A stretch of 64,000 bases of DNA, taken from positions 1,674,001-1,738,000 of the forward strand of contig NZ_CP089588.1 in assembly GCF_021249345.1 (NCBI RefSeq), given 5' to 3'. Shown here one piece after another: positions 1,368-37,902 of this stretch. This DNA comes from Halobacterium wangiae (GTDB lineage Archaea > Halobacteriota > Halobacteria > Halobacteriales > Halobacteriaceae). Under the pieces are notes generated by a model, which saw only the letters and a program-made list of their open reading frames with translations, did no database searches and had not been told where the DNA came from. A program made the translations under genes and the position numbers. The first letter of the stretch is position 1. Each line of letters starts with the position of its first letter.

Positions 1368-1440
1368 CCGGTCGACACGAGAGCGTACTGCTTCTGTGAA
1401 CGTCCGCGGAGAACTGTGCAGCGACGGCCGGGTGGAGCGG

Positions 1441-1797
1441 TCAGTGGCGGTTGAGCTTCGACCGGCTGATGGCGATGCCGTTCGGCGTGACGATGAGCTG
1501 GTCGTCGCCCTTCTGGACGATGTCGCCGCCGACCTCCTGGGCGACCTGCCGGAGTTCGTCGACGACGTGTTCGACGGTGCGGTCCTCCGTGCGCAGTCGC
1601 GTGATGTCCGCGATGACCATGTCGCCGTCGTAGACGGCGTCCTTGATGGCGATGACGTCCTCCTGGCCGTCGATCTCCGCGACGTGTACTTTCACACCGA
1701 CTTCGCTCGCGTCCGTGTCGAAGTCGTCGATGTCCAGTTCGACGTAATCCTCGGTGGAACTCCCGCTCCCGCCGAGAATCTTCTCCATGAAGCCCAT
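1441..1797 (-). CDS. sepF: Cell division protein SepF
   Basis: Archaeal SepF anchors the FtsZ ring to the membrane. The protein has 118 residues, a normal length for haloarchaea. It begins with a short amphipathic N-terminus (MGFMEKILGG) that would bind the membrane. An acidic linker (YVELDIDDFD) follows, and then the SepF fold (DVIAIKDAVYDGDMVIADIT, ending in VTPNGIAISRSKL). It is the last gene of the minus-strand group with the rhodanese, TusA and YeeE genes, but the 68-base gap and a TATA-like stretch near 1828 suggest its own promoter. Confidence 0.9.
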   Translation of the reverse strand: MGFMEKILGGSGSSTEDYVELDIDDFDTDASEVGVKVHVAEIDGQEDVIAIKDAVYDGDMVIADITRLRTEDRTVEHVVDELRQVAQEVGGDIVQKGDDQLIVTPNGIAISRSKLNRH

Positions 1798-11650: not shown

Positions 11651-11763
11651 CCTCGCGCGGAGCGCGAGGTTCGCCGCGAACGTTCCGCGTTCGCGGGAGC
11701 GTTTTTAGCGTAGCTTTTTGCGAGGCGGGTTCCCGCAGCGAACGTAGTGAGCGAGGAAACCCG
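11651..11763 (-). terminator. Triple hairpin array downstream of aEF-2
   Basis: Three inverted repeats lie in the 333-base gap between aEF-2 and the ACT gene: 11651-11658 with 11662-11669 (8-base arms), 11674-11682 with 11688-11696 (9-base arms), and 11726-11731 with 11758-11763 (6-base core). On the minus strand a T5 tract (11771-11775) comes right after the aEF-2 stop and before the hairpins, fitting archaeal U-tract termination. The rest of the gap is the ACT promoter and leader. No other gene is seen. Confidence 0.5.
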
Positions 11764-11784
11764 TCGAAGTAAAAAGGTCCGACT

Positions 11785-13971
11785 TTAGAAGTAGTCGATG
11801 CTCGGGGGCAGCTCCGTCTTCATCCCCTTGCGGACGCGGATCTCGTCGATGATCTCCGGCTGGAGGTTGTCGGCCATGACGCGGAAGCCGGCGTTCTCCG
11901 TGTTCCAGGAGGCACGGCCCTCGGTGGCCGAGCGGATGTCACTGGAGAAGCCGATCATCTCTTCGACGGGCGCGATGCCCTCGACGACCATGAGGTCACC
12001 CTCCTGGTACATGTCGTCGACGCGGCCGCGGCGTCCCTGGATCTCGCCGGACGCGGCGCCCATGTGCTCGGAGGGGACGTCGATGCGGACGTCCTGGATC
12101 GGTTCGAGCAGACGGATCTCGGCGTCGATGAGCGCGCGGTGGGCGGCGTCGCGGACCGCCGGGATGATCTGGGCGGGACCGCGGTGGATGGCGTCCTCGT
12201 GGAGGCGCGCGTCGTGGAGACGGACGAGCGCACCCTCGACGGGTTCGGCGGCGAGCGGGCCGTCCTCGAGGGAGTCCTCGAGACCCTCGACGACGAGTTC
12301 CATCGTCTCGTTGAGGTGCTGGATACCCTTCGTGTCGTCGATGAAGATGTTGCGGCCGATGATGTTCTCGACGTTCTGGGAGGTGTCCTTGTCCATGCCG
12401 GCGTCCTGCAGGACCTCGCGGCGCTCCTGCTCGGGCATGTCCATCGACACTTCGCCGAGGCGGAGCTGCTCGAGCACCTCGTCGCTGAGCGGCGTGACCG
12501 TGATGTAGAACTTGTTGTGGCGGTTCGGGGAGACGCCCTCGACCTCGCGGGACTCCTGGGTGGGCATCTCGCGGTAGACGACGATGGGCTCACCCGTGGT
12601 GACGGGGATGCCCTGGTTGCGCTCGATGCGCTGGGTCTGGACTTCGAGGTGGAGTTCGCCCTGCCCGGAGATGAGGTGCTCGCCCGTGTCCTCGTTGATC
12701 TCGATGGAGATGGTGGGGTCCTCCTTGGAGACTTGTCGGAGCGTCTCGATGAGCTTCGGCAGGTCGTCCATGTTCTGTGCCTCGATGGACTTCGTGATGA
12801 CCGGCTCCGAAATGTGCTCGATGGACTCGAACGGCGTCATCTCGATGCTGGAGACGGTGGAGCCGGCGATGGCGTCCTTCAGGCCGGTGACGGCGGCGAT
12901 GTTCCCTGCGGGGACGTGTTCGACCTCCTCGCGCTCGCCACCCATGTAGATGCCGACGCTCTGTACGCGGTTCTTCCCCGCGGTGCCGGAGACGTACAGC
13001 TCCTGGCCCTTCTCGATGGTGCCGGAGAACACGCGGCCCGCGGCGATCTCGCCGGCGTGCGGGTCGATGCCGATGTCGGTGACCATCAGGACAACCTCGC
13101 CGTCCTCGTCGACGAGACGCATCGTGTCGGCGAGTTCGGAGTCCGCGTCGCCGCGCCAGATGCGCGGGATACGGCGGGGCTGGGCGTCGATGGGGTTCGG
13201 GAAGTGCTCACAGACCATGTCGAGGACGACGTCCGACAGTGGCGTGCGCTCGTGGAGTTCCTGGCGCTTGTCGTTGCGCTCGAGGTCCATGATGTCGCCG
13301 AAGTCCATGCCCGTGCGCTGCATCGACGGCATCGAGACGCCCCACTTGTAGAGCGCGGAGCCGAACCCGACGGTGCCGTCCTCGACGGAGACCGTCCAGT
13401 CGTCGATGTCGTCCATCTCCTCGGTCATGCCGCGGATGAGCTCGTTGACCTCGTTGATGACCGACAGGAGTCGCTCCTGCATCTCCTCGGGCCCCTCCTG
13501 GAGCTCGGAGATGAGGCGGTCGACCTTGTTGATGAACAGCGCGGGCTTGACGCCCTCGCGGAGCGCCTGCCGCACGACCGTCTCCGTCTGGGGCATCGCG
13601 CCCTCGACGGCGTCCACGACGACGAGCGCGCCGTCGACGGCGCGCATCGCACGGGTCACGTCGCCGCCGAAGTCGACGTGGCCCGGCGTGTCGATGAGGT
13701 TGATGAGGTGGTCGTCGTCCTGGTACTCGTGGGTCATCGAGACGTTCGCGGCGTCGATGGTGATGCCGCGTTCCTGCTCGTCCTCCTCGGTGTCCATGGC
13801 GAGCTGCTCGCCGGCGGTGTCCTCGGAGATCATGCCGGCACCGGCCAGCAGGTTGTCCGTGAGCGTCGTCTTGCCGTGGTCGACGTGCGCGGCGATGGCG
13901 ATGTTCCGAATCTGCTCGGGTTCGTCCATCAGCCGTTCGCACTGTTCGACAATCTTCTTGCGTCGGCCCAT
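11785..13971 (-). CDS. fusA: Translation elongation factor aEF-2
   Basis: The translocase GTPase, 728 residues, full length. G1 is [16 protein letters not shown] near residue 30, switch II is DTPGHVDF and NKVD is present. Domains III-V follow, with the diphthamide region near residue 600 ([16 protein letters not shown]...[13 protein letters not shown]), whose His is the usual modification site. TTTTGAA at 13995-14001 (minus strand) is 27 bases before the ATG, so the message is leaderless. In many archaea this gene follows rpsG directly. Here two genes separate them. Confidence 0.98.
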
Positions 13972-16952: not shown

Positions 16953-17381
16953 TTATCGGACCGGTTTCTCCGCGTTCCCGCGGACGAGTTCGATCATGCT
17001 CACGCCGTTGACCTTCTCGACTTTGTAGTTCACGCCCGAGATGTCGCCCATCGCACGACCCTTCGCACCGCCGATGCCGGCGATGGTGACTTCGTCGTGC
17101 TCGTCGATGAACGAGATGGCGCCGTCACCGGGACAGAACGCCGTGACCTGCTTCCCGTTCTTGATGAGCTGGACCCGGACGCACTTCCGGATCGCGGAGT
17201 TGGGCTGTTTCGCTTCGATGCCAATCTTCTCGAGGACGATGCCGCGACCCTGCGGCGCACCCTCGAGGGGGTCGGACTTCTTGCCGAGACCCCGCTCTCG
17301 CCGCGCGTACTCGGAGTCGGACCACCGGTGCTTCTGGCGGTCCTTCTTGAGTTTCCGAGCGGCGTACTTGCCGTTCGACAT
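16953..17381 (-). CDS. rpsL: Small-subunit ribosomal protein uS12
   Basis: A 142-residue decoding-centre protein. It has the archaeal uS12 regions [21 protein letters not shown] and [20 protein letters not shown]. The motif [15 protein letters not shown] contains the conserved loop that contacts the mRNA decoding site. Its TATA element lies 27 bases upstream (17405-17411), so rpsL-rpsG has its own leaderless promoter even though nusA and the polymerase genes lie upstream in the same direction. Confidence 0.97.
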
Positions 17382-17404
17382 ACAGCCGATTACCCAGTGG
17401 AGGT

Positions 17405-17411
17405 ACTTAAG
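17405..17411 (-). promoter_or_regulatory. TATA element of rpsL-rpsG
   Basis: ACTTAAG (minus strand CTTAAGT), centred 27 bases upstream of the rpsL ATG. It is placed just outside the left end of the large palindrome. Confidence 0.7.
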
Positions 17412-17417
17412 CCCGAC

Positions 17418-17792
17418 CTTTTGCGCTGCGGCGCGGCTGCGCCGCGCCTCGGCAAAAGCTCGACCAAAAGCACTCCTCCCTCACTCCGCGCCTCCGGCGC
17501 TCCGTTCGGTCGTCGGCCCGCGCTCCCGTTAGTCGCGCGGTGAACGGCTTCGCTCGGGTTCTTCGAACCGCTCGCTCGCCGATGCTCGACAGTCGGTTTC
17601 ACAACCTATCGGCTACGTTCGCGACCCGAGCGGCTCGAAGAGCCCGGAAGGGTCGCGATTCACCGAGCGCGAACGAAGTGAGCGCTCGGACCGACGACTG
17701 AGGGACGCGAAGCGGACCGAAGGAGGAGTGCTTTTTCCGCAAGTTTTTGCCGAGCGGGGGTCGCCGCAGGCGACCCCCCGCAGCGCAAAAAG
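17418..17792. repeat. 375-bp imperfect palindrome filling the nusA-rpsL spacer
   Basis: Matching inverted blocks share one axis near 17601: 17418-17431 with 17778-17792 (CTTTTGCGCTGCGG against CCGCAGCGCAAAAAG), 17448-17457 with 17745-17754, 17466-17479 with 17722-17735 (14 perfect bases, AAAAGCACTCCTCC), 17506-17516 with 17691-17701, 17538-17544 with 17659-17665, and 17556-17574 with 17627-17645 (17 of 19). Each arm contains its own hairpin (17431-17447 and 17756-17778). No coding frame is credible inside. This is essentially the whole 416-base intergenic gap apart from the rpsL promoter. Confidence 0.88.
17756..17778 (-). terminator. GC-rich hairpin after nusA
   Basis: GGGGGTCGCC and GGCGACCCCC form a perfect 10-base stem around GCA, 20 bases beyond the nusA stop. 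A T5 tract comes just after the stop on the minus strand, before the hairpin. It may end or process the rpoH-nusA transcript. It is also one nested hairpin of the large palindrome. Confidence 0.5.
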
Positions 17793-17797
17793 TGCGC

Positions 17798-18223
17798 TTA
17801 CGTGAGCTGGATATCGTCGACGTCGTAGTGGCGGGCGGCGAGTTCCTTGGCGGCCTCGATGTTCTGGCCGTCTGCGCCGATTGCGACGCCCTTGTCGTCG
17901 TGGGCGACCTCGGCGTACGCCACCGTCGTGTCGTTCTCGCTGATGGTGACGTTGTACACCGCCGCGGGGGAGAGCGCGTTGGCGACGAACCCCTCCGGCG
18001 TCGGCGCGTCCTCGACCAGCATCACGTCCCGGCCGAGTTTCTCTTCGAGGGCTTCGACGCGGCTCCCGCCGGGGCCGATGGCCGACCCCATCTCGCCCGC
18101 GGTCACCACGAAGATGACGCGGTCGCGGTCGTCGTCGACGACGCAGTCGACGGCTGTCGCCTCCGTCTCGTCCTCGAAGGCCGCCAGCAGGCGGCGCGCC
18201 TCGTCCGAGAGCCGGACTGTCAT
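17798..18223 (-). CDS. nusA: NusA-like transcription factor (KH-domain protein)
   Basis: Archaeal NusA of 141 residues, which contains only the two KH domains and not the N-terminal polymerase-binding and S1 parts of bacterial NusA. The first KH loop is seen in VTAGEMGSAIGPGGSRVEAL and the second in KGVAIGADGQNIEAAKELA. Both hold the GxxG RNA-binding turn. The start overlaps the rpoA'' stop by one base (TGATG), as is standard in archaea. It closes the polymerase operon. Confidence 0.93.
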   Translation of the reverse strand: MTVRLSDEARRLLAAFEDETEATAVDCVVDDDRDRVIFVVTAGEMGSAIGPGGSRVEALEEKLGRDVMLVEDAPTPEGFVANALSPAAVYNVTISENDTTVAYAEVAHDDKGVAIGADGQNIEAAKELAARHYDVDDIQLT

Positions 18224-19410
18224 CAGTCCGACTTGCCGGCGCCCATGCGCAGGTTGACGTCGCCCGTGCCGAGGCGGACCGGCTTCCCGACGATGACGTT
18301 CTCGATGACGCCGTCGAGGTCGTCCGCCTCGCCGTAGATGGCGGCGTCGAGGAGGTGGTTGACCGTCACCTCGAACGCCGCCCGCGCGAGCACCGAGTCC
18401 TTGTTGCCGGAGATGCCGTGCCGGCCGATGGACTGGATGGTGCCGTCGTTGGTCATGATGTCCGCGACCAGCATCAGGTGGCGGATGTTCACGTCGCCCA
18501 GCCCCTGCTCTTCGAGGGTGGACATCGTCTCGTCGATTATGGCCTCGCGGGCCGCCTCGATGCCGAGGGTCTTGTGGACCTCGTGGATGTTGTTACACTT
18601 CGTCCGGGAGGCGTCGACGCCCTCGATTTTGAGCGCCTTCTTGAACGCCGAGCCCTCCGTGTAGAGGACGAACTCCTCGCCGCGGTCGGTCTCCTCGCGG
18701 CGGATGACGACGCGGCTGACGTCCTCGATGCCCTTGAACACGATGTCCCGGAGCTGTTCGACGAGCTGGAGCAGCTCGCGGTACGAGGGTTCGCTCGGAC
18801 CGAACTCGAGGACGGTACCCTGCTGGGTCACGTCCACGCCGAGGCTCCCCTCGATGGTCTCGGCGATCTCGGCGGCGACCTCGGTCGTGTCGTCCTCGAG
18901 CGGCCAGCGCTCCAGGAGCGTGTCCTCGTTGAGGTCGATGCGGACGACCATGTCGGCGACGTTCGTCGAGATGTCGCCGAGCGCGAGGATCTTCGTCGCC
19001 TCGATCTTCCAGACGACCTCGTGGGCGCGTTCGCGCTCCGCGGCGTACTCGTCCTCGAGGAACACGTTCATCACCGGCGTGTCCGGTGTCTTCCGGGCGT
19101 CCACCAGCTCGATGAGCCGGGGGAGGCCCTGCGTGACGTCCATCTCCGCGACGCCCGCGTAGTGGAACGTGTTCATCGTCATCTGCGTCCCCGGCTCCCC
19201 GATTGACTGCGCGGAGACGGTCCCCACCGGGTCGAGGGGGTCGATGCGGGTCTCGAGGTAGCTGGACTCGACGGCGGTCGCGATCTCCTCGACCTGCTCG
19301 TCGGTGACGCCGTCGCGGTCCTCGATGGTGTCGTAGACGCGCTCCTTCAGCCGTCGGGGAAGCTCCGTGGCCTCGACAGTGTCGCGCACGCTCTCGGTGA
19401 CTTCAGTCAT
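18223..19410 (-). CDS. rpoA2: DNA-directed RNA polymerase subunit A''
   Basis: The C-terminal part of the largest subunit, 395 residues. The A'' start follows a TTSS-like region with [37 protein letters not shown], which contains the bridge-helix-proximal trigger loop sequence of archaeal A''. The C-terminus has [23 protein letters not shown], also typical. It overlaps the rpoA' end by eight bases. No intein or frameshift is present. Confidence 0.97.
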
Positions 19411-36479: not shown

Positions 36480-37703
36480 ATGACCTTCCGGGACTTCGAC
36501 GCGCTCCGCGACGCGCTCGCGGGCGCCGACTTCGACCGCCCGCCCGCGTTCGTCGCCAACGCCCACGTTACGGGACTCTCGGTGGCTCGCGCGCTCGCCG
36601 CCCACGACGTCCCCGTGGTCGCGCTCGACCGCTCCGGGGACGGCGCCGCACCGCCCTCGAACGCCGTCGACTACGCGGGCCAGGTGACCTACCCGCTCGA
36701 CGACCAGGCCGGCTTCCGCGAGGACGTCGAGGCGCTCGCCGCCGAACTCGCCCACGACCCCGTCGCCTTCGGCTGCATGGACGAGTGGGCGCTCGCGTTC
36801 GCGGAGGCCGACCCCGACGGCGTCCGCCTGCCGTTCGCGGACATCGACACGCTCGACTCCGTGCTCGACAAGACCGCGCTGTACGACCGCTGCGAGGAAC
36901 TCGGCGTCCCCTACCCCGAGACCTACCAGCTCTCCGAGACCGACCCCGAGGAGGCCGCCGACGAACTCGGCTTCCCGCTCGTCGTCAAACCCGCTCGCAA
37001 GCGCGAGTTCGAGGAGGCCGTCGGCACGAACGTCATCGAGGTGGCCGACCGCGAGGAGTACCGCGACGTCGTGGAGATGGCACGGGAGACCGGTATCGAG
37101 GTCATGGCCCAGGAGAAGGTCCCGGTCGCGCGCGGCGAGGACCACTCGCTGGCCTCCTACGTCCCCGAAGACGGCGACCCGCTCGCCGTCGTGGGCAACG
37201 CCCGCGTCCGCGCACCGCTCGGCTACGGCACGTCTTGCGTCGTCGAGCGCGTGGAACGGCCCGAGATCGAGGAACGCGCGCTCGCCGTCGTCGAGGACGC
37301 TGGCTACCACGGCATCAGCGAGGCGGAGTTCGTCTACGACAGCGCGCGCGAGGACTTCGTGCTCCTCGACGTGAACACGCGCCCGTGGAAGTGGATCAGC
37401 ATGCCCGTCGCCGCCGGCGCGAACCTCCCGGTGGCGGCCTACGCCGACGCCACCGGCACCGACTACGACCCCGGCCCACTCACCGACGCTCGCTGGGTCT
37501 CCCTCGAGGACTACCTCCCGCTGGTCGCCGGCGGCGAATTCGCGGACGTCCTCTCGCCTGCAGACTGGCAGGCCCTCGTCTCGGGCGAGTTCGAGACCAC
37601 TGGCGACCTGACGACGGCAGTGTACCGGCCCAGCGACCCCGCGCCCGTCGCCCACCGCCTCGAAGTAGAGTTCGGCGGCCGCGACTACTACTGCTCCTGC
37701 TAA
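36480..37703 (+). CDS. ATP-grasp carboxylate-amine ligase-like protein
   Basis: A 407-residue protein. The N-terminal domain (PPAFVANAHVTGLSVARALAA) precedes an ATP-grasp core with PLVVKPARKREFEEAVGTNV and ISEAEFVYDSAREDFVLLDV, the latter leading to the NTRPWKW metal site. TTTACCC at 36451-36457 lies about 26 bases before the ATG. The C-terminus ends in RDYYCSC, with two Cys only one residue apart. Similar proteins are in many haloarchaea. The substrate is not known. Confidence 0.8.
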   Translation: MTFRDFDALRDALAGADFDRPPAFVANAHVTGLSVARALAAHDVPVVALDRSGDGAAPPSNAVDYAGQVTYPLDDQAGFREDVEALAAELAHDPVAFGCMDEWALAFAEADPDGVRLPFADIDTLDSVLDKTALYDRCEELGVPYPETYQLSETDPEEAADELGFPLVVKPARKREFEEAVGTNVIEVADREEYRDVVEMARETGIEVMAQEKVPVARGEDHSLASYVPEDGDPLAVVGNARVRAPLGYGTSCVVERVERPEIEERALAVVEDAGYHGISEAEFVYDSAREDFVLLDVNTRPWKWISMPVAAGANLPVAAYADATGTDYDPGPLTDARWVSLEDYLPLVAGGEFADVLSPADWQALVSGEFETTGDLTTAVYRPSDPAPVAHRLEVEFGGRDYYCSC

Positions 37704-37902
37704 CGTTCAAGTGCGAAGCCGGGACCAGCCCGGCCCGTGACCTGACCGTCGACCGGCGCGGCTCCGCGGGAGTGCGACACACCGCGCCGGACCAGCTGTC
37801 GCCTGCAAGCCCCTTCCAGGCGAGCGTTGCCGTCGTCGGTGACAACGCCACGCCCCCGCCGGTGTCGCCCCGGCTAAACCCCGGCCGCGCGAACGCCGGG
37901 TA

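Follow-up and report, generated by a model that had tools for sequence, protein, structure and literature searches.

The usual view of mobile or recombining repeats is that they land in spare intergenic DNA. Among the highly structured ones, ERIC and BOX are mosaic intergenic repeats of a size comparable to the element described here; to our knowledge neither is reported to keep a fixed distance to stop codons or to carry a U-tract terminator. MITEs and PATEs are short and non-autonomous and differ in presence between species. The REP and BIME elements of enterobacteria are dispersed palindromic intergenic repeats with units of 20-40 bp, often near 3' ends, in inverse pairs and with mosaic modules; of the REPs predicted in E. 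coli, roughly 11% are no more than 15 nt from a stop codon (PMC12306157). The SMRs of Haloquadratum walsbyi are short, non-coding, dispersed through a haloarchaeal genome and bounded by terminal inverted repeats, and they have a strong target preference, namely for other mobile elements, by a mobilisation that is obscure (PMC3119063). Archaeal U-tract terminators consist of T4-5 behind genes and require no hairpin; in a Haloferax reporter a T5C stretch ends 95% of transcripts, and the median Haloferax 3' UTR is 97 nt (PMC7237163).

The element that fills the nusA-rpsL spacer of our window (the whole 64-kb stretch of DNA that was analysed) can be compared with each of these. It has the T4-5 of the U-tract terminators behind genes, where a transcript end is expected, but here the tract keeps to 3-10 nt behind the 3' end, supplies the 5' arm for a hairpin that is conserved, and is part of a repeat of about 175 nt, dispersed and with T-tracts on both strands. 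It shares dispersal, palindromic structure, inverse pairs and mosaic modules with REPs, whereas its unit is four hairpins with a T-tract, a Y1 transposase partner is not supported, and its position is far tighter than that of the E. coli REPs. Like SMRs it is short, non-coding and dispersed in haloarchaea, with a strong target preference; unlike in SMRs, terminal inverted repeats are not seen in single units, and the preference is for gene 3' ends. With MITEs and PATEs it shares the short, non-autonomous form and the presence in some species and absence from others, but position and covariation are unlike those of a neutral MITE, and no matching transposon ends have been established. We file the element as a dispersed palindromic repeat of a known sort that is new in its predicted terminator and in its fixed distance to gene ends. 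A literature search that covered few subscription journals returned descriptions of REPs, SMRs and T-stretch terminators, and none of this element.

The two arms of the nusA-rpsL palindrome

The earlier note had described the spacer as a single imperfect palindrome of six inverted blocks on one axis, with a nested hairpin in each arm, lying between the RNA polymerase operon and rpsL on one strand, and this description is borne out. An inverted-repeat search recovers six blocks with a common axis near 17600 (Table 1), and 141 of 210 columns are identical between the left arm and the reverse-complemented right arm. The local arm score is 92, as against a mean of 20.2 (sd 2.9, maximum 34) in 1000 dinucleotide shuffles; the arms thus pair far better than shuffled sequence, a comparison named beforehand as one that could undo the claim. 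The palindrome is the top arm-pairing window of the 64 kb, the next unrelated one scoring 38, and the spacer folds with an MFE of -239.5 compared with -179.6 ± 6.1 for shuffles (z = -9.85). The GC cores of the two nested hairpins differ with their pairing preserved, and both flanking genes are on the minus strand. The palindrome fills the spacer as had been proposed, with bounds slightly wider (about 17411-17797) than the 17418-17792 first given. The putative rpsL promoter has a counterpart in relatives, where a CTTAAGTA or TTTAAGTA motif stands at the same place.

Table 1. Features of the nusA-rpsL spacer and its flanks, with the second copy found in the window; scores are those of the first-hairpin covariance model.
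Feature	Position	Strand	Remarks
rpsL (uS12) CDS	16953..17381	-	
Putative rpsL promoter, TATA/BRE-like GGGCTTAAGTACC	17402..17414	-	Read from sequence; adjoins left half-element
Left half-element, same family, opposite orientation	17411..17586	+	T-end toward rpsL promoter; 60.7 bits, E 1.5e-11
Domain I, left half	17413..17480	+	CGACC-TTTTGC...GGCAAAA-GCTCG-ACCAAAAGC; different GC core GGCGCGGC/GCCGCGCC
Central 25 bp between half-elements	17587..17611	.	Without match to other copies
Right half-element, four hairpin domains, T-end first	17612..17797	-	Starts directly behind nusA stop (TAA); 85.7 bits, E 4.9e-17
Domain I, right half	17721..17796	-	CGCAC-TTTTTGC...GGCAAAAA-CTTGCG-GAAAAAGC; GC hairpin core GGGGGGTCGCC/GGCGACCCCC
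T5 tract, predicted termination site of polymerase operon	17789..17793	-	Starts 6 nt behind nusA stop
nusA (archaeal NusA-like) CDS	17798..18223	-	Conserved in 49/59 relatives
Inverted block	17416-17431/17778-17793		16 nt, 94%
Inverted block	17448-17469/17733-17754		77%
Inverted block	17466-17489/17712-17735		24 nt, 88%
Inverted block	17506-17523/17684-17701		83%
Inverted block	17520-17538/17667-17685		74%
Inverted block	17555-17574/17627-17646		20 nt, 90%
Second, divergent copy, Domain I (GGACCTTTTTACTTCG...CTCGCAAAAAGCTACGCTAAAAACG)	11692..11781	-	24.8 bits, E 0.001

The feature is not the only one of its kind. When the spacer is compared by blastn with its own genome (3.11 Mb, one contig), the 66 matches are dispersed over about 28 loci, and every match covers either the left or the right half of the palindrome. 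Over 75-142 nt, copies at other loci share 80-95% identity with the right arm (L001, 81.6% over 141 nt; L006, 94.7% over 75 nt), whereas the left half shares 70.5%. The nusA-rpsL palindrome thus probably consists of a gene-end repeat, dispersed in haloarchaea, in two copies that lie head to head. The T-end of the left arm does not face any gene end.

Two of the origins suggested in the earlier note caught part of this. A decayed MITE was right as to a dispersed repeat, with neither transposon ends nor a target duplication established. An in-place inverted duplication of a single terminator would place two arms of one family in inverse order, as they are found, and fast core turnover could mask an old event of this kind; the arm-to-copy identities disfavour it, each arm being nearer to dispersed copies than to its partner, and among the spacers read no relative has two nearly identical arms, so that we consider such a duplication quite improbable.

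Relatives do have the inverted structure at this site, with both half-elements found in 9 of 13 Halobacterium genomes and in a second genus (L047). Across ten species, arm-to-arm similarity is 58.1 within and 56.5 between species, and 8160 of 20000 arm-swap permutations are as good as the observed pairing (p about 0.41), indicating that the arms pair because both belong to one repeat family and not through joint evolution. The giant fold is a by-product of two family members in inverse order. Selection for one giant hairpin, whether as a cruciform or because RNase processes the RNA read through from nusA into rpsL, would fit the strong fold in the own genome and the shared two-armed layout, but the permutation speaks against this hairpin as the conserved object, and with the predicted fold of one relative (L027) falling into local hairpins we hold it to be very improbable.

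Inverse pairs are also seen in another family, at C1:435533-435901 and C2:49114-49681 of genome G041, where, as at nusA-rpsL, one T-end is at a stop codon and the other is away from gene ends.

Architecture, copy number and position of the repeat

The unit is a mosaic, modular series of successive hairpins of about 170-190 nt; between the T-end and GATGCT most units measure 160-195 nt, and all fall within 120-241 nt. In the aligned half-elements Domain I reads, T-end first, CGCAC-TTTTTGC-(GC hairpin)-GGCAAAAA-CTTGCG, so that the 5' arm of its outer stem carries a T4-5 tract and the 3' arm an A4-5 tract; the GC hairpin enclosed by this stem is exchanged freely in sequence between copies. Next come AAAAGCACTCCTC, which has a variable hairpin, TCGTCGGCC, which has a third hairpin, and TGAACCG...GGATGCT, which has a fourth. 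The repeat is regarded as a mosaic because an extra module of about 60 bp (GTCTGCTCACGGGCG...GGCCAGCGGGACC...) is inserted in the Domain I loop in several species (L017, L161, L172, L194). A hairpin can also be lost by deletion between short direct repeats, as in L150 (G006, L009-type gene) and L168 (G001, L004-type gene); in these copies stop-CGCAC is joined to TCCTCC, and TGCG to CTCGCGGATGCT. Downstream of the hairpin element there is often another dispersed repeat, TAGGTTCAAGTAGGAGAGCGGGACCAACCCGG-CCGTGA (window 37703-37830; L004 2165-2260; L006, L009, L015, L016); it has a promoter-like start, and in five loci it is without an Rfam match at threshold.

Copies in the genomes were counted by searches with blastn, a sequence pattern and a covariance model of the first hairpin (R1), the last built from 50 copies that are all near a stop and in all of which the T-tract is identical. 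R1 returns 30-33 hits in the own genome, which as dispersed, short, palindromic and intergenic repeats resemble REPs and BIMEs, and 15-53 in other Halobacterium. Other Halobacteriaceae have 9-33, with two exceptions at 0 (G007 and the incomplete G023), and the remaining Halobacteriales 0-22. The second copy in the window stands behind the stop of a 728-aa ORF (11785-13971) that looks EF-2-like, and has orthologous copies in congeners.

The pattern TTTTGCN{15,45}GCAAAA gave 67 Domain I copies in three Halobacterium genomes (G000, the own genome, with G002 and G011), and in 58 of these a long coding ORF has its stop 3-10 nt ahead of the start of the T run, which has the length (T4 or more) and the place (immediately behind a gene) of U-tract terminators; gene ends here are codon-scored ORFs rather than curated annotation. 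With the R1 model, 25 of the 30 hits examined in the own genome have the T-tract 4-9 nt behind a coding stop, a check that is partly independent, since several of the hits (L237, L240-L242, L244-L247 and L249 among them) lie outside the model-building set, whereas the model copies are all stop-proximal. In three other families (G030, G041, G048), 20 of 30 copies lie within 10 nt of a coding stop.

A T-tract at this place is not a general property of gene ends in the window. Its ordinary gene ends with spacers no shorter than 60 nt number 28, and only two of these, nusA and the EF-2-like gene, are followed by T4 within 25 nt; both carry the element, and the other 26 are without T4, indicating that the stop-proximal T-tract comes with the element.

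The family is not confined to protein genes. In the own genome one copy follows tRNA-Ser (L243) and another a copy of the tRNA-Leu 3' end (L227), and in another family L257 and L265 stand directly behind tRNA-Leu and tRNA-Met, respectively. At L227 (1306-1500) a second copy of the tRNA-Leu(TAA) 3' end lies some 110 bp downstream of the first, with the element behind it; the arrangement looks like an attachment-site duplication.

Fold conservation and turnover across species

Covariation was scored on an alignment of Domain I (A2); in an earlier full-unit alignment RNAalifold found only 8 pairs because MAFFT had misaligned the arms. In A2 the outer stem is paired in 92.7% of cells. Double-changed stem cells number 39, compared with 10.7 ± 2.6 in shuffles that leave sequence relatedness in place, and the covariation score is 0.206 versus 0.061; none of 500 such shuffles reaches either value, and slid controls collapse. 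The first hairpin of each unit is what is maintained, by compensatory changes. Beside the T-tract, 40 of the 67 pattern copies have a T-A pair, 18 have C-G and 3 have G-C, and the neighbouring position is a C-C mismatch in 59; in the copies on Haloterrigena and Natrinema plasmids the same arrangement is built from other bases.

As to the strand on which the fold acts, two lines of evidence disagree. Among unique hairpins read on the gene-sense strand, C(TNC)G loops outnumber C(GNA)G loops by 69 to 25 (p = 6e-6), a bias that would suit stable RNA loops on the gene-sense strand or DNA triloops on its complement, whereas in 55 of 60 cases it is the antisense strand that has the lower computed RNA energy.

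Gain and loss were followed at the 3' ends of nine genes in up to 13 Halobacterium genomes. By a strict presence rule 64 of 114 orthologous sites are occupied, a rate biased upward since the genes were chosen as occupied in the own genome, and in 62 of the 64 the T-tract lies 3-10 nt behind the stop. Filled and empty sites agree in the aligned codon at which the upstream reading frame stops. Empty sites have no T-tract, and some are only 0-1 nt wide between convergent stops; behind the L003 gene in G010 and G012, for example, the next three bases are the stop of the convergent gene. One Halobacterium, G007, has no copy by pattern or by R1 model and appears to have lost the whole repeat family, its nusA-rpsL spacer holding what look like decayed remains of the element.

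The cores of orthologous copies have a similarity of 0.614, hardly higher than the 0.574 of unrelated copies in different genomes, which speaks against inheritance of the hairpin core with the ortholog and indicates that the position persists and the sequence does not. Unrelated copies in the same genome reach 0.600, and the difference within versus between genomes is equalled in 1 of 300 permutations. All these core similarities were computed under a presence rule looser than the strict one above and include a few false calls.

The nusA-rpsL spacer itself varies in content. The palindrome gives way to a gene for an MscS-type mechanosensitive channel in G008, a Halobacterium, and in other genera (L023 2012-2839 and L034 531-1415, with Pfam PF00924 and PF21082; L036, L038 and L040 similar by eye), and in genus g3 (L041, L043) the same place is taken by tandem hairpins CAGCTTTTTGGCGGGCC-GTCA-GGCCCGCGAAAAAGG, a different T/A-armed hairpin.

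Candidate function and origin of the family

Because T5C terminates 95% of transcripts in Haloferax (PMC7237163), the T4-5 tract a few nt behind stops and tRNA ends is best read as the terminator of the preceding gene, and we infer that the element is best read as a REP/SMR-like family, mobile or recombining, whose members are U-tract terminators acting in both directions. The T-tract would end transcription of the gene in front by archaeal U-tract termination, and the two A-tracts of the unit would be opposite-strand T-tracts for transcripts from the other side, so that one unit would cap a gene end in both directions. At nusA-rpsL two facing units would fill the distance from the nusA stop codon to the rpsL promoter: a polymerase leaving nusA would meet T5 at once and then two T4 tracts ahead of the promoter, antisense RNA would meet the same tracts in reverse, and the pair may thereby insulate the RNA polymerase operon from the ribosomal-protein operon. 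Copies would be spread and exchanged by recombination or by some mobilising enzyme.

Several observations stand against termination as the whole account. The left arm at nusA-rpsL faces no gene end, and the evidence on the acting strand is divided. The 3' UTRs predicted here would be about 12 nt, compared with the Haloferax median of 97 nt (PMC7237163), and an RNA ending in the first T-tract never completes the hairpin, so that U-tract termination alone leaves the conservation of the stem unexplained. The stem may be conserved for a part in read-through transcripts, in the stability of RNA or in the way copies spread. We advance tentatively, as possible rather than probable, the wider proposal that these are mobile haloarchaeal 'terminator cassettes' that target sites 3-10 nt behind stops and tRNA 3' ends and act as a two-way stop, with the fold selected and the sequence turning over as gene ends are re-equipped from a circulating pool. 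If true, this would show how terminators can spread as units, in a family at fixed distance from the ends of protein and tRNA genes that is gained and lost between species. Archaeal U-tract termination, antisense protection and operon insulation could all be tested on the element, in a setting where sister species naturally differ in the presence of a cassette behind the same gene and the congener apparently without the family is a natural control.

A selfish repeat (MITE, SMR or REP-like) that inserts behind stops and tRNA ends without benefit to the host, termination being incidental, would also be expected to be patchy, as this family is at the orthologous sites, where empty ones are as narrow as 0-1 nt between convergent stops and a congener has decayed remains in place of copies, and Haloquadratum SMRs have a likewise strong target preference (PMC3119063). 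Such a repeat is at odds with the compensatory changes that keep the fold while the sequence turns over. A single unit begins with CGCACTTTTTGC... and finishes with ...GGATGCT, neither of which is the inverse of the other, and in the flanks of filled and empty sites that were read no constant target duplication was noticed. A RAYT/Y1 partner is not supported, PF01797 (Y1_Tnp) being absent from six copy-bearing Halobacterium genomes (G003, G005, G006, G008, G009 and G012, with 15-43 copies) and present in G007, which has none, and no GTAG or CGTC tag of the REP/BIME type, by a 20-40 bp palindrome, was noticed in alignments A1 and A2. We judge a purely selfish origin unlikely.

A role in translation would account for an outer stem that starts within a few nt of the stop codon: E. 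coli REPs no more than 15 nt from a stop are reported to stall the final ribosome (PMC12306157), and the hairpin here could do likewise. Copies likewise stand behind the untranslated 3' ends of tRNAs, which argues against a purely translational role, and the invariant T-tract would be unnecessary for stalling; we regard this alternative as improbable.

No known Rfam RNA family is matched at its threshold: window 17000-18300 gave only sub-threshold matches up to E 1, and five other loci gave nothing at gathering score. Carriage by phages or viruses was rejected, with no blastn match to the element in phage records and no exact pattern match in IMG/VR. Plasmids gave three partial matches only (Haloterrigena, Natrinema, Haloarcula), one more with another copy as query and none with a third. 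At one locus (L248, about 1422-1605, minus strand) the copy is flanked by a direct repeat of about 30 bp, CAGACGCTCGGYGGTTCGCCGCCGAACTCC, one side of which lies at the 3' end of a convergent reading frame; this repeat could be a target duplication.
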